Below are positions 3,238-32,834 of a stretch of DNA of 32,834 nucleotides, piece by piece. The DNA is from Candidatus Doudnabacteria bacterium RIFCSPHIGHO2_02_FULL_43_13b (GTDB lineage: Bacteria > Patescibacteriota > Doudnabacteria > UBA920 > O2-02-FULL-48-8): NCBI GenBank assembly GCA_001777655.1, contig MFER01000005.1:14587-47420 (forward strand). Reading direction: 5' to 3'. The number at the start of each line of letters is the position of its first letter. Positions within the stretch are counted from its first letter, which is position 1. Both the position numbers and the translations under genes were made by a program. The notes under the pieces are model-generated. The model did no database searches. It saw only the letters and a list, made by a program, of their open reading frames with translations, and was not told the DNA's origin.

Positions 3238-6200
3238 TTACCGCCCTAAATTCTCAACCGAACGAATGCTAAAGTTAACTAGATCCGGATTAATTGTCCG
3301 CAAAATCAGATAAGAACTAAACAATAAAGCCAGACCGATTATCGCGCCCCAAAGGATTTCCACCCCTTTACTTGCTTGCTCGGCGTTGCCGGCGGCAGTC
3401 ATATACATATATCCGCCAAAAATAACCATCAATAATGCCAACAGAGCACCAATTCCCAACGACCAAATGTAAATTTGGTTAATTAATCGCGGAAGACTTG
3501 TCGTATCGGGGGTTGTGGGACTTACAGTGCCCGGCTGGGAACTTGTTGGGCTAATGCTCCGATCTTCAAATATGCTGGAGGTTGACGTTAATACGACGGC
3601 CGCGTAACCTTGGGTGCCTAAAGCCAGGGCACCTTGAGGCGTTACGACATTATTTGGATAGAAAGTTCCATAAGGTTGAACGGATGAATCCGGCGGGGCA
3701 ATCGCCTGGCGGATATTCAGCATAGATCCATCAGTTGTCATCTCCATCAGAATGGATCCTCCATCACTGTCCTCAGTACTGTTAAATATCGTGTTAGTCC
3801 AGGGGTTATAGTTGAGATGCGGGCCGCCGTATCCGCTCGAGTAAGGAAAAATATTTGTATTCAAAATCGCCTGTTCAGGACCGATCGTGTCATTATCATA
3901 AATTACTCTCCCCCATTGGCCAGCCCGATTAGCCGGAGCATTCTCTTGCCAAACTACCAAAGCCCGTGAATCTATCGGGCTATAAACAATCTCCGCGCGG
4001 CCAAAACGATTCTGGCCAAGATTTGGCTGGCTTAAAATTATCGGATCACCAAGCCAAGAATTCGTAGCTACATCATACCGATAAACCCCAACCTTGCAAT
4101 CCTCCAAAGTCGGGTCATTATTATTAATACACCCGACCATCGAAACCATATATTGATTAAGGTTGGAATTTACCGCCAGCGTTGGCTGGCCTTCATATTC
4201 CGAAGAAATCAACTGGGGAACTTTGATGTCCTGGCTGACTGTTCCGTTCGCGTCCACGGTTTTGATGAAATTTTCTCCGCCCGAGGAAAGCATGAAAACG
4301 AACTTTTTGTTTCTTTCGTCATAGTCCAAATCCATCAAAAAAGTATTTTGTTTTCTGATTTCAAAATCAGTTCCCTGCAACGTCCCATCTACTCCAACGA
4401 ACCTCGCGTACACATAACGGTTAAATTTGTCGCCACTTCTCGAATCTTCCCAAGCGACCAAGAATCGATCTTGGTCTGGAGAATACGCAACCATTGGCGC
4501 TTGGGCCCCTTGACCAATGATCGTCATCGGACCGATTTCGACAGCCATCGTATCCGGATTGATTATAAACCCAACTATTCCGCGCAGGTCTTTAATCGGA
4601 TCAAGGACAGCGGTCGAAACTACCAGCACCCGATCGTTACTGGATGAATAAGCGCTATCAAAACCCCAAGTTCCGGCCGCGGGCAGCTCCAGCGGGTTTG
4701 ACGGATCTTGACCCGGCGCGAACGTCTGCGGCGTTCCGTAGAGTAAATTATTAAAACTGCATTCTAACAAAGCCTCGGTATCGGTTGGTAAAGGATCGCA
4801 AATAATCTGGTCTACCGTTTGGCCTAATGAAGTAAAAACAGCTATTCTGACTGTCGGATTCCAAGTTGCCACGACATAATACCCTTGACTGTCAGTTGCC
4901 GCGCGAGGATCATGAGCTCTTTCGGTCGCCCAAATATTAAATTGCGTGGCGGGATCGTTGTTAAATCTACCAACAATGCCATTATCATTTCCTGGAATTA
5001 TGGTTGGGGGTAAGTTATAAGCGTCTGTTGCCACTGTCAGCGGACCAGCAAATGAGGCTGATACTCCCCAGGGCACAGCTGTTAAATCTGTGTCATACAT
5101 TACAACATTGCCACTAGGAAGTATTCTAGTGATTCCTGTTGGAAGACCACTTCTCAACACAACGGGGGTGCCGCCGCCAATTGGCCGACGGAATACTTTT
5201 AAGAAGCCGTCTTGTTTGTTCTGCCAGGCAATGTAACCGTTACCGATCGCCACCGGACGATTCCCGCTGCCTACTACTAGTCCCAAATCCTCAATCGCCC
5301 CAGTATCACTACGCCAAAGCTTGATGCGCTCTGGAATACACGTCGTTGGATCGACCGCGCAGGCGGAATTTTCCCCATCTCTAAAAATCATCCAAAGAAT
5401 ATTATTAAATACGCCGAGTCGTTGGAAGGCCCGGCCAACGCCGGAAAATGGAATCTGTGTAACTCTTTGATCGGTTAAATTCGTGGCAAAATTATATAAA
5501 TTTAACTTGCCATAATCACCCGGAGGCCCTTGCTGAACCGCCACCCATACTCTGCCATTAAAGAACACCGGGTCCGGGAATGTCCCAACACCTAAGTCTT
5601 TGGTGGTAAAAACCGTTGGAGGAGTTGGCACAAGGTTGCTTGTGCTTCCACTAATCAGCGCTCCCTTATACCCGGCCCCTCCCGCTATCCAGGCCCACAT
5701 AGCAAGCCATCGGGCATTAACCGGATCAGCGGCTAAGCCAGGATAATAGCCGGGAATTATTCCATCCCACGCCCCCAAAAAGATTTTCTTATTAGGATCG
5801 ATCGGATAACCATTATCTCCAAGTTCTACGGCATAAAGACTAGCACTGGAGTCAAGTTTACTGAGGAGTAGCGTCGTCTCGGTTCCGCTGTTGTATGCAA
5901 GCTTGACATCCCCCGCAGTCGGTCCAAAACTCTTAGTAAGATCTAGCGGGCCCATACTTCCATCCAAGTTAACAATACGAAAATCAGCCCAACCCGCTCC
6001 CCCTCGCGCCCAAGTGGTTACAAACTTATTTATTTTGGAATTATATACGACATCGGCATCCTGAATATTCCCGGCGGATTGATTATCAATAATATAGAAT
6101 AAACTTCCTAGGAGCGTCATCGTGTTGGAATTGAAACGTCTGCCATATGCTCCATTAATCGTATAGCCAACTGACAAGCAAATTCCATTAGTGGCGCAAG

Positions 6201-26412: not shown

Positions 26413-27372
26413 ATGACCCTCAATGAATTGATTAGTTTTGGCACGACAAAATTATCGAAAACCTCTGACTCGGCCACTCTCGACAGTGAGGTGCTTTTGG
26501 CTTATGTTTTAAAAAAACCGAAAGAATATTTATCTGCTAACCCTAAACAATTTTTGCTCAGTAATAAGCTCAGTAAATATAAACGATTAATCGATCAACG
26601 CGCCAAGGGCTGGCCGGTAGCTTATTTGACTGGCCACAAAGAATTCTTTGGCTTAGATTTTATCTTGGACAAAAACGTGCTTATCCCACGTCCAGAAACT
26701 GAAAGCCTAGTCGAATTAGTGCTCGAAAAAATCAAAGATAAAAAAACAAAAATAAAAATTTTGGATATCGGCACTGGCTCAGGCAATATTATTGTTGCGC
26801 TAGCAAAAGTGCTTAGTTTTGTCTTTGCGAGCGGAGCGAAGCAATCTCATTCTCGGGTCGAGATTGCTTCGTCGCTACGCTCCTCGCAAAGACAACTTTT
26901 CTTCGCCTCTGATATTTCCACTGCCTCCTTACGAGTTGCCCGCCAAAACGCTAAGCGCCATAAAGTTAAAATCAATTTCAAAACAGGCGATCTATTGAAA
27001 CCTTGGAAAAACCAGTCCTTCGATATTATCGTTGCTAATCTACCCTACTTGGCCAGAAAAACCGATCCATCAACTAAGTTTGAACCAAAAACAGCCTTAG
27101 TGGCAAAAAACCAAGGCCTAGCACTTTACGAGGAGCTATTTAAATCCATTGCGAGGAGCGAAGCGACGCGGCAATCTTTCATAAGATCGCCACGCGACCT
27201 TCGGTCGCTCGCGATGGTTAAAAATACTCTACCCGCTTTTGTCTTCGTCGAAATCGGACATAACCAAGCAACCCAAATTAAAAGCCTGGCCAAAAAATGC
27301 TTACCAGGCTTTCAGGTCACTTTTTTCAAAGATTTATCAGATCGGGTTCGTTATTGCCAATTGCAAAAATAG
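26413..27372 (+). CDS. prmC: Release factor glutamine methyltransferase with two in-frame palindrome insertions
   Basis: PrmC methylates the GGQ glutamine of release factors with SAM. The 319-residue protein is longer than the usual size of about 280. It shows PVAYLTGHKEFFGLDF, PRPETESLVELVL, the SAM loop LDIGTGSGNI and the substrate motif as NLPYL, where NPPY is usual. Two extra segments (residues about 137-161 and 245-268) are encoded by palindromic repeats at 26821-26893 and 27146-27217; both fall in surface loops of the fold and keep the frame, so the enzyme may still work. The stop is 1 nt from the converging rplY stop. Confidence 0.93.
   Translation: MTLNELISFGTTKLSKTSDSATLDSEVLLAYVLKKPKEYLSANPKQFLLSNKLSKYKRLIDQRAKGWPVAYLTGHKEFFGLDFILDKNVLIPRPETESLVELVLEKIKDKKTKIKILDIGTGSGNIIVALAKVLSFVFASGAKQSHSRVEIASSLRSSQRQLFFASDISTASLRVARQNAKRHKVKINFKTGDLLKPWKNQSFDIIVANLPYLARKTDPSTKFEPKTALVAKNQGLALYEELFKSIARSEATRQSFIRSPRDLRSLAMVKNTLPAFVFVEIGHNQATQIKSLAKKCLPGFQVTFFKDLSDRVRYCQLQK
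26821..26893. repeat. In-frame palindromic repeat inside prmC, first
   Basis: Perfect outer arms GTCTTTGCGAG and CTCGCAAAGAC, inner arms GCGAAGCAATCT and AGATTGCTTCGTCGC. It encodes about 24 residues of PrmC, between the SAM-binding helix and the FASDIS strand. Same family as the element at 25128-25232. Confidence 0.85.
27146..27217. repeat. In-frame palindromic repeat inside prmC, second
   Basis: Imperfect outer arms CCATTGCGAG and CTCGCGATGG enclose AGCGAAGCGACGCGG and GACCTTCGGTC. It encodes ARSEATRQS and RDLRSLAM-like residues between YEELFKSI and LPAFVFVEIG of PrmC. Same family as the first. Confidence 0.8.
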
Positions 27373-30626: not shown

Positions 30627-31763
30627 CTAAAGTATATCACTATTTTTAAATAACCAATAATTACTCAACAATTCTTGCTTAATCTGCTTTGTCTGCCCAT
30701 GCTTTAAAAGTCCCAGGTAAGATTGGAGACTATCATCATTGGGTCTGATTTTAATCCGCTTCATCATTCGTCTTTTGGTGGAGGTTCGTAATGTTCTATG
30801 CTGCGGGAAATTCACCCAACCCAAGAAATCAACACCCGACGAAAAGGTTTTTATAATAACCTTATTTGGATGCAAGCTAAGATTTAATTCGTTGTTCAAG
30901 AATACTACGATACGAGATAGTATCATAGTATTAATCTTCTTATCAGGTCCAAGGATCACAAAATCATCAGCATAGCGAATATAATATTTCGCTTTTAACT
31001 TATGTTTGACGAACTGGTCAAATTCGTTTAGGTAAATATTCACCAGCAATTGCGAAGTAAGGTTACCCAGAGGCAGTCCTCTTGCGCATTTGCGAGGTGG
31101 CCGCAACCCAGAGCGAAAGGTCGAACCTTTCGCAAAGGTTTCCCTTAAGTTAAGGTTCGACCTTAAACCCTCCTTGCGGCCGACCTGCCCGCCGACGAAG
31201 CAATCTGTTCCAAAGCTATCTATAATATTATCGAGCAACCTCATAATATCCTGATCGGGAATATATTCTTTCAAAATCTGTTTTAAAACCTCATGGTCAA
31301 TGCTGGCAAAGAACTGGCGGATGTCGAGTTTGAGGACCCAGCAGGTTTTACGGTTATAATCCGAGGCTTCGAGAAACATGGAATGCAATCGCTTAATCGC
31401 TTTGTGTGTCCCTTTACTTATTCGGCAGGAATACGAATCATAGATAAATTGTTTATCAAAGAAGGGATATAAAATGCGGTAAACGGCATGATGAACTAGT
31501 CGATCGCGCACACTGGCTTTACTTATGTTTCTGGGCTTCGGATCAGAAATATTAAACTGATGATACCCGCCATGCTGATAGGTCTTGTTGGCAAGATCGT
31601 TATGAAGCTGTAAAATATTATCGATAAGGTTGCGACCGAATTTCTGCACATCTAGCTTGCCTCTTTTCCCGCGAATAAACTCTTGCCAAGCTAAAAATAA
31701 ATTTTCGACAGAAATAATATTTTTATATGCCAATAAGCCCCCCCCAACAAATTTTGAGACCAC
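30627..31763 (-). CDS. DGR-type reverse transcriptase with in-frame palindrome
   Basis: This RT copies the template RNA of a diversity-generating retroelement. Seen: the first catalytic Asp in LDIRQFFASID (about residue 147), the DGR hallmark LPLGNLTSQ (group II intron RTs have QGxxxSP there), YIRYADDFVIL with the catalytic YADD (about 264-267), and VDFLGW near the end. It has no maturase or endonuclease domain. Residues about 193-223 are encoded by a nested palindrome and have no counterpart in usual DGR RTs. The ATG at 31763 reads through eight G; a TTG at 31733 just after the G run, giving an AYKNIISVENL start, is equally likely. The TR, VR and Avd lie beside it. Confidence 0.93.
   Translation of the reverse strand: MVSKFVGGGLLAYKNIISVENLFLAWQEFIRGKRGKLDVQKFGRNLIDNILQLHNDLANKTYQHGGYHQFNISDPKPRNISKASVRDRLVHHAVYRILYPFFDKQFIYDSYSCRISKGTHKAIKRLHSMFLEASDYNRKTCWVLKLDIRQFFASIDHEVLKQILKEYIPDQDIMRLLDNIIDSFGTDCFVGGQVGRKEGLRSNLNLRETFAKGSTFRSGLRPPRKCARGLPLGNLTSQLLVNIYLNEFDQFVKHKLKAKYYIRYADDFVILGPDKKINTMILSRIVVFLNNELNLSLHPNKVIIKTFSSGVDFLGWVNFPQHRTLRTSTKRRMMKRIKIRPNDDSLQSYLGLLKHGQTKQIKQELLSNYWLFKNSDIL
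30631..30639 (-). promoter_or_regulatory. Extended -10 promoter (TGATATACT) inside the RT gene end
   Basis: On the minus strand TGA-TATACT (30639-30631) lies within the last codons of the reverse transcriptase gene and points at the gene starting at 30599. The -35 region is weak (TATTGG). Confidence 0.45.
31096..31185. repeat. 90-bp nested palindrome inserted in the RT gene
   Basis: Outer arms GGTGGCCGCAA (31096-31106) and TTGCGGCCGACC (31174-31185); inner arms AAGGTCGAACCTT (31117-31129) and AAGGTTCGACCTT (31152-31164), which are perfect reverse complements. The length is 30 codons and the frame stays open. It lies between RT motif 3 and GLPLGNLTSQ. It differs in sequence from the prmC elements. 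Confidence 0.85.
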
Positions 31764-32115
31764 AAATCTGCCAGTTGTTCAGAAGTTGTCATCAGCGTTT
31801 AAACTTTGGAATAATTATTTACCTCGAGTACCGCGATTAATTAGATATTCTTTAGGAGAAAAAATAACTTCTTTATTTATCGAACTTACTGAACTTATTC
31901 TAATTGCCGGATATTCGGATAGACCGCAAAAGCTACAAATTTTACAGAAAGCTACGATTAAGCTAGATTTACTAAAATATTTTCTGCAAACAGCCCTGGA
32001 ACTCAATGCCATTAAGCCAAATATGCTGGTAGAATTATCAAGTCCTTTAGGTGAAGTCGGCCGCCAACTGGGCGGCTGGCAAAAACAACTGGCTAAACAA
32101 ACTCCTCCACAGTAA
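31727..32115 (+). CDS. avd: Avd-like accessory protein of the DGR; ATG one base out of frame
   Basis: Avd is the small basic four-helix-bundle partner of DGR reverse transcriptases, needed for template copying. The frame ending at 32115 encodes LPVVQKLSSAFKLWNNYLPR, then SLGEKITSLFIELTELILIA, KLDLLKYFLQTALELNAI and the closing GEVGRQLGGWQKQLAK, all typical. No ATG is in this frame; the ATG at 31727 reaches it only if the C run at 31738-31745 has nine C and not eight, which would give 129 residues, the usual size. TAATAT ends 6 nt before that ATG. An assembly error, slippage or a non-ATG start are the options. It is antisense to the TR-RT direction and divergent from the RT gene, with overlapping 5' ends. 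Confidence 0.82.
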
Positions 32116-32129
32116 TGGAGGAGTTTTCA
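32099..32129 (+). terminator. Terminator at the avd stop, hairpin just downstream of the TR
   Basis: AACTCCTCCA and TGGAGGAGTT pair around CAGTAA, whose TAA is the avd stop, followed by TTTT. On the other strand the same hairpin lies about 15 nt after the end of the TR and could shape the 3' side of the template RNA. Confidence 0.8.
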
Positions 32130-32141
32130 GTCCAAAGAAAG

Positions 32142-32236
32142 TTGCGACCGCCGAACCAGTTGTTGGAGTTCCAGTCGTTGCTGCTACGGTTGACGTTGAC
32201 GTAGCGCTTGTGGTCGTCCCGGTTGAAGTTGGCGAT
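32142..32236 (-). other. DGR template repeat (TR), 95 nt
   Basis: Aligned without gaps to the VR at 32595-32689, it matches at 80 of 95 positions. All 15 differences fall on a T of the plus strand, that is an A of the TR strand (11 A-to-G, 4 A-to-T in the VR); 13 more TR adenines are unchanged. Read as protein it is rich in AAC-coded Asn (RYVNVNRSSNDWNSNNWFGG). The 18 nt at the 3' side in the coding direction (32142-32159) are identical, as expected of the initiation end. TTGACA-like boxes at 32367-32372 and 32338-32343 (minus strand) are possible promoter parts, but no good -10 box follows. Confidence 0.95.
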
Positions 32237-32473
32237 AATGTGCGCAATACCATCCGATCTTCTTTTAAATGCCTTTCTTATTTTTTGCGGGAATAAAACC
32301 CGACCAGTATTCCGCACCAAGTTTCTTTGAAACTTCTTGTCAAACGGTACGCTGTCGTAAACTTAATGTCAACGACATTCTGGCGATCTGACAATGCGAG
32401 ACAAACAATCTGAAAGACTGGCTCTCGCAGATATTTTCAAATTTGTCTGAACTTAGTTTAACAAATTTTCGGG
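32237..32473. other. Gap between TR and target terminator, no gene supported
   Basis: I see no convincing coding gene here. The stretch holds a hairpin AAGTTTC-TTT-GAAACTT (32320-32336) and two minus-strand TTGACA boxes that might belong to a template-RNA promoter. A minus-strand open frame joined to the TR (KAFKRRSDGIAHIIANF and following) may be a remnant of a target gene. Confidence 0.5.
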
Positions 32474-32513
32474 CAAAAGAAAACACGGCTCGATCTTGCG
32501 AAAGAGCCGTGTT
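32474..32513 (-). terminator. Intrinsic terminator of the DGR target gene
   Basis: On the minus strand AACACGGCTC and GAGCCGTGTT form a 10-bp stem, followed by TTTTCTTTT. It lies about 70 nt after the target stop. The region between them repeats the word CTTGG several times. Confidence 0.85.
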
Positions 32514-32581
32514 GTGTGTGAAGTGCCAAGCGTCCGAAGGCTCCAAGGCCCAAAAGAACCAAGGGTCTTAGCATCCAAGAA

Positions 32582-32834
32582 CTACTTGGAAACCTTGCGA
32601 CCGCCGAACCAGAAGTCGGAGCTCCAGCCGCTGCTGCCACGGTCGACGCTGACGTAGCGCTCGTGGCCGACCCGGCTGAAGTCGGCGAAACACCAGTTAC
32701 CGTCGGCATCCTGCCAGCTGTCCCCATTGGGATGCTGGTCGGCAAACGCTGGGATCAGTGCGTTGATCAGGGCCTGGACTTCCAGGTCACGAATCAACTC
32801 CCGCATCGTTCGTTCGGTCTCGACGGCCGCGTCG
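32582..32834 (-). CDS. DGR target protein, C-terminal part (runs off the window)
   Basis: The frame is open to the right edge, so the N-terminus is missing; the ATG at 32806 is internal or a late start. Visible are a helical ETERTMRELIRDLEVQALIN segment, then DADGNWCFADFSRVGHERYV and GSSGWSSDFWFGGRKVSK. The last 35 or so residues are the variable region, with a pattern of aromatic and Gly residues around changed sites, as in C-type-lectin-like DGR targets; the fold class is not certain from this piece. Changes against the TR alter 14 residues. The invariant part at 32691-32834 is 62% G+C by hand count, well above the surrounding genes. Confidence 0.85.
   Translation of the reverse strand, partial: DAAVETERTMRELIRDLEVQALINALIPAFADQHPNGDSWQDADGNWCFADFSRVGHERYVSVDRGSSGWSSDFWFGGRKVSK
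32595..32689 (-). other. DGR variable repeat (VR), 95 nt
   Basis: The copy of the TR inside the target gene. It starts after NWC of the target and ends 10 nt before the stop codon. Substitutions against the TR lie only at template adenines. The protein-level changes include N to D, S or F, D to V or G, K to E, S to G and I to F. The final 18 nt are unchanged. Confidence 0.95.

Follow-up and report, generated by a model that had tools for sequence, protein, structure and literature searches.

The Bordetella phage BPP-1 DGR (mtd-avd-TR-brt), in which avd, template repeat (TR) and reverse transcriptase (RT) are co-directional, combines an RT, Avd, a TR and a variable repeat (VR) that is changed specifically at adenines; the VR lies at the 3′ end of the target gene and an inverted repeat stands just after it. 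The BPP-1 TR RNA is flanked by avd on its 5′ side and by a spacer before brt on its 3′ side, and activity of the DGR requires Avd (PMC12875486). Clade 2 of the DGRs described by Roux et al. 2021 (PMC8144416) consists of cellular DGRs restricted to Patescibacteria (CPR); the words "avd" and "orientation" are absent from the main text of that paper. A different kind of system is given by phase-variable contingency loci based on poly-G/C or short repeats, such as those of Campylobacter (PMC3025981). In loci of this kind a short repeat in the 5′ coding region varies in length, and the frame is random among relatives. The gene that would be switched at the locus analysed below differs from these in being part of a targeted hypermutation machine. 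A constantly active mutator would presumably be costly. To our knowledge, how cells gate DGRs is largely open, and we know of no phase-variable component of a targeted hypermutation machine; none surfaced in a literature search.

We analysed a 32,834-nucleotide stretch of DNA (the window) from Candidatus Doudnabacteria bacterium RIFCSPHIGHO2_02_FULL_43_13b, in which a prediction made from the letters alone (the original prediction) had placed a complete DGR with an inverted avd. The RT is encoded on the minus strand at 30627..31733 (368 residues from a TTG at 31733, AlphaFold mean pLDDT 85.9), or in a longer open reading frame from a GTG at 31763 that lies upstream of a poly-C tract. It carries the LPLGNLTSQ and YADD motifs noted in the original prediction and matched Pfam RVT_1 (E 3e-23). 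Across the aligned RTs LPLGNLTSQ and the Y-DD motif are kept, as expected of DGR-type RTs. An RT profile search gave relatives that are nearly all CPR, and from these hosts we infer that the RT probably belongs to clade 2 of Roux et al. 2021 (PMC8144416), whose hosts are likewise CPR. The Avd-like frame held up as well, with a match to PF22296 (bAvd, E 8e-13) that exceeds the cut-off of that family and one to NF033474 (DivGenRetAVD, E 5e-18) that at 65 bits falls below the curated cut-off of 80. The avd gene occupies 31727..32115 on the plus strand, with a likely ATG start at 31727, the conserved Avd frame from 31750 and a stop codon at 32113-32115.

The TR (32142..32237, minus strand, 96 nt with 28 adenines) is paired with a VR of 96 nt, VR1, at 32595..32690 on the minus strand. 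VR1 lies at the 3′ end of a target open reading frame that stops at 32582-32584 and extends at its 5′ side beyond the window; the target fragment in the window had no Pfam or NCBIfam match. All 15 differences between the TR and VR1 fall on TR adenines (hypergeometric P 3e-10), as had been claimed for TR/VR pairs in the plural. The window holds a single VR, and the second lies on another contig (C17:622-717), where all 17 differences from the TR are at adenines; a comparison of the two VRs shows 14 differing positions. The second target gene (L037, positions 609-1358 of C17) encodes 249 residues and has a C-terminal region in common with the first target. Just 3′ of VR1 is a CCAAG-TAGTT-CTTGG inverted repeat (32575..32589, minus strand), an identical copy of which stands beside the second VR, and which by analogy is taken as the counterpart of the DGR target hairpin. 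A hairpin with a T-rich run, read by eye at 32483..32512 on the minus strand, probably terminates transcription of the VR target gene and would set the target apart from the TR. With a DGR-type RT, an adenine-specific TR/VR pair, an Avd and a VR that ends its target gene next to an inverted repeat, every DGR feature that can be tested on the sequence was found, and by these features the locus is a true DGR whose mutagenesis is specific to adenines and whose avd is inverted. The description "complete" needs qualifying: the avd frame does not join its likely ATG in the assembled sequence, and the RT carries an insert.

The avd gene lies antisense between the TR and the RT, as originally described, and the co-directional layout of BPP-1 is absent; avd diverges here from the RT. 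The original prediction had implied that this inversion is a peculiarity of the locus and had suggested a comparison of gene order with other DGRs. In a first set of related loci avd was antisense and head-to-head with the RT in nearly all, and among 80 GTDB loci found with the RT profile, 74 of the 75 having avd near the RT had it antisense. The set was then enlarged to GTDB loci plus a sample of 380 Patescibacteria genomes and viral contigs. Antisense avd was found in 159 of its 174 unique loci, including nearly all CPR ones, and the 15 sense cases came mostly from viral contigs, those whose RT was least similar. On the RT tree avd orientation changed twice, compared with 13.7 times for shuffled labels. 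Among the sampled CPR/Patescibacteria DGRs an antisense avd is the norm, and we rejected the notion of a local oddity. Avd orientation in CPR DGRs was not found described in the open literature, and an earlier mention may exist, the search having covered open papers only.

The original prediction had also pointed to a difficulty of joint expression, as any RNA running from the TR toward the RT would be antisense to avd, and had assigned the hairpin after the TR to avd as a terminator. This hairpin (32100..32125, arms 32100-32108 and 32117-32125) holds the avd stop codon in its loop and its polarity in the window itself is ambiguous. Among 110 post-TR hairpins of relatives, a tail with 6 or more T in 10 positions follows on the TR strand in 70 and on the avd strand in 8. 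The T-rich tail therefore makes it look like a terminator of the TR RNA, and its assignment as an avd-only terminator was dropped. A scan of the relatives that sought the TR within 400 nt of the avd stop and required adenine bias found a TR in 133 of the 159 antisense loci, 132 of them on the RT strand with the VR upstream, at a median distance of 19 nt from the avd stop; the ratio of adenine to other TR/VR differences was 2271:48, a value conditioned by the adenine bias that the scan demanded. Upstream of the TR, TATAAT-like sites of the relatives cluster at about -250 to -221 and -80 to -51. Sites of the first cluster are often followed by GGTAGTAG and are promoter-like and fixed in position; the second cluster is part of a conserved leader motif. 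From the position of the conserved site a possible -10 element (TAAACT) of a TR RNA promoter was picked by eye at 32455..32460 on the minus strand. It is weak: the window copy (L036) had no site that qualified in the -10 search. A simple consensus scan of the window for promoters and terminators called no terminator and gave nothing useful.

The leader itself is an RNA that folds as a three-way junction, found just 5′ of the TR at 32235..32337 on the minus strand (54.5 bits, with helix P3 degenerate in this copy). In an alignment of 63 leaders the junction comprises 22 pairs, 20 of which show compensatory double changes; 94.5% of cells are paired, compared with 36-53% in slid versions, and the covariation score is 0.746, compared with 0.294 for shuffles. 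The covariance model matches CPR DGR loci, many of them outside the set from which it was built, and on viral contigs eight antisense loci were positive and no sense one. In the compared loci the leader ends within a few nucleotides of the TR 5′ boundary (32237 in the window). Rfam held no described family for the leader and gave two sub-threshold chance matches in the stretch searched, nor was the leader found described in the open literature on DGR RNA structure; the conserved fold is apparently new to description. The TR thus looks like a separate RNA gene, preceded by a promoter-like site and a structured leader of its own and followed directly by a terminator-like hairpin, an arrangement that departs from BPP-1. 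Because the TR is apparently transcribed on its own, the concern about transcription antisense through avd is weakened, and the puzzle of joint expression would largely dissolve.

A further departure from BPP-1 is a repeat tract at the start of avd. The inferred 5′ ends of avd and the RT overlap head to head, and there lies a run of eight cytosines (C8, 31738..31745 on the plus strand), a putative phase-variation tract just inside the inferred avd start. At C8 the likely start codon at 31727 does not share the avd reading frame, which C9 would restore; the related locus L069 (genome G006) has the same start, C9 and avd in frame. Two in-frame TTG codons of the window lie upstream of the tract, within the RT on the opposite strand. 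A short repeat is present at the avd/RT junction in 125 of the 159 antisense loci, usually as poly-C (108 loci) and otherwise as CT, CA, GA or TC units (17 loci), with in addition one CAAT array in L317. As the units differ at one and the same place, the conserved property seems to be the capacity to slip and not the sequence itself. Tract length also varies between closely related loci whose flanks are conserved, with C10 in L174 and C8 in L203. Genome background was rejected as the source of the tract, since runs of at least eight C or G numbered 64 at the avd/RT junction and 2 elsewhere in 596 kb, and the whole 776,513-bp genome has only three. Its other two long C runs are not comparable, one encoding glycine in an open reading frame read as RuvB and one being intergenic. 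A poly-G ribosome-binding site for the RT was also rejected, because dinucleotide units occupy the same place and, by eye, the tract is often well upstream of the RT ATG. The avd-start repeat was not found described in the open literature on DGR phase variation.

Scoring a locus as ON when avd is in frame with an ATG, we found such an ATG in 42 of 125 repeat loci, a fraction based on assembled tract lengths, as against all 32 evaluable antisense loci without a repeat (Fisher P 4e-13, with the loci related by ancestry and the counts accordingly not fully independent); L308 (N-masked) and L317 (the CAAT array) were set aside from the latter. The nearest open ATG of the repeat loci was distributed over the three frames as 37/49/39 (chi-square P 0.37), and in the 71 repeat loci that lack an ATG, GTG or TTG after the tract the frames were 26/24/21. 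Of 124 loci, 120 had an ATG open to the tract no more than 50 nt away, compared with 56% of control windows, these being antisense-RT windows, a stricter control than base shuffles. Mapped on the tree, presence of the repeat required 16 changes compared with 39.8 when shuffled and is inherited; the ON/OFF state required 34 compared with 33.3 and has no phylogenetic signal. The type of repeat unit follows the tree whereas the frame does not, and tract length is without significant signal. As in contingency loci, the repeat is in the 5′ coding region, given translation from the putative upstream ATG, and the frame is free among relatives. The sequence case for a randomised avd frame is strong. 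The random frame of repeat loci, set beside the intact frame of loci without a repeat, suggests that DGR mutagenesis in CPR is probably phase-variable through the repeat at the avd start.

The avd gene is conserved in both ON and OFF loci (dN/dS about 0.04-0.12 where estimable, dS often saturated); three OFF/OFF pairs with estimable dS gave dN/dS of 0.045, 0.067 and 0.075, at dS above 2. TR/VR pairs are about equally frequent in OFF (73 of 86) and ON (33 of 39) loci, and the fractions of adenines changed are 0.548 and 0.547, respectively. In 42 OFF loci the tract is followed by a candidate start (ATG, GTG or TTG), mostly TTG at a conserved leucine, and such a start codon might give basal Avd. 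When the codon at the conserved leucine of the avd Leu-Pro was scored, TTG was found in 23 OFF loci and 1 ON locus; it is a possible backup start.

Our reading, to which we give a probability of about 0.8, is that the locus is a DGR of CPR/Patescibacteria type with a stand-alone TR RNA and an avd switched by slippage. The TR RNA would start at a promoter ~235 nt upstream, run through the leader to the TR 5′ boundary and beyond, and end at the terminator-like hairpin ~20 nt after the TR. Copying by RT and Avd would introduce errors at adenines, and the resulting cDNA would replace the VR in at least two target genes. The RT and avd diverge, with overlapping 5′ ends, and avd would open on a hypermutable repeat; changes in its length by strand slippage, presumably reversible within a population, would decide whether avd is in frame with the upstream ATG. 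With the avd frame set by tract length, mutagenesis would be ON stochastically, in about one tract state of three, and in the other states OFF, without retrohoming. Switching would remove Avd only, because the RT starts beyond the tract.

We consider it rather likely that across CPR the avd repeat toggles DGR hypermutation in single cells and that the template is a stand-alone RNA in which the 5′ three-way junction marks the end of the cDNA or recruits RT-Avd. If so, the switch would be a general and testable answer to DGR gating in a very large, mostly uncultured bacterial group, and mutation of the mutator would decide which cells diversify. The leader, a concrete RNA domain, is a candidate for binding RT-Avd or for terminating the cDNA, and it predicts a template organisation in CPR DGRs that differs from the BPP-1 spacer model.

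Much of the same evidence bears on other readings. Transcriptional slippage or ribosomal frameshifting at the tract could supply low, constant Avd whatever the tract length, with no switch. Leaky expression of this sort explains the purifying selection on avd equally well and accords with the location of the tract, whatever the frame, in the presumed 5′ coding part of avd; however, dinucleotide and once tetranucleotide repeats replace poly-C, which is typical of DNA slippage and less so of RNA polymerase or the ribosome, and the unlike lengths in L174 and L203 also speak for changes in the DNA, so that we regard this reading as unlikely. The tract might instead tune the divergent promoters or 5′ untranslated regions, through element spacing or RT translation, with avd starting after it at a weak codon. 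That 42 loci lack any in-frame ATG, GTG or TTG argues against this, as do the in-frame ATG of every evaluable locus without a repeat and the open ATG that precedes the tract almost throughout, despite the position of the tract upstream of the RT start as well and the candidate post-tract starts of the OFF loci; we hold it to be improbable.

A decaying DGR, with a frameshifted avd and an RT broken by a repeat insert, would also account for the out-of-frame ATG at C8. The insert, about 36-40 residues (31086..31208, approximate, minus strand) between IIDSF and GLPLGN, is built from a dispersed palindromic repeat that encloses a second palindrome, and its flanks match many short places in the genome. 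Among the aligned RTs its position is common to G001 and G006 only, most relatives lacking it. In both genomes, though, the same-site insert is in frame, and AlphaFold modelled it as a disordered loop (pLDDT below 50 at residues 179-196 and 200-214) within an RT that is otherwise intact and confidently predicted. The presence of more DGR remnants in the genome favours decay, whereas the adenine-only differences of both VRs (15/15 and 17/17) show no background decay, and two-thirds of the repeat-bearing relatives are likewise out of frame, with TR/VR pairs as frequent as in ON loci. Decay of this DGR therefore seems very improbable to us, and the slippage-switched avd remains our preferred reading. 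The insert, the leader RNA and the tract had all been overlooked in the original prediction.

The genome has three copies of the leader, at this DGR (54.5 bits) and on contigs C12 and C3. The C3 copy (4371-4483, 104.8 bits) belongs to a remnant (L359) with a TR at about 4484-4600, a VR at 4033-4149 and a truncated avd; no RT was found adjacent. Either decay of a DGR or contaminating sequence in the bin (contamination 4.8%) could explain it. More DGR-type RT loci of the same genome lie on C13 (L088), C12 (L089) and C8 (L090): one is partial without avd nearby, one has an RT split by a stop and one is intact. In L089 and L090 avd is antisense and the repeat is absent. Dispersed palindromic repeats (GATTGCTTCG... 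/ ...CGAAGCAATC) occur in frame within coding genes not only in the RT (31086-31208) but also at ~26825-26885, within an open reading frame (26413-27372) read as prmC, and recall the Rickettsia palindromic elements.
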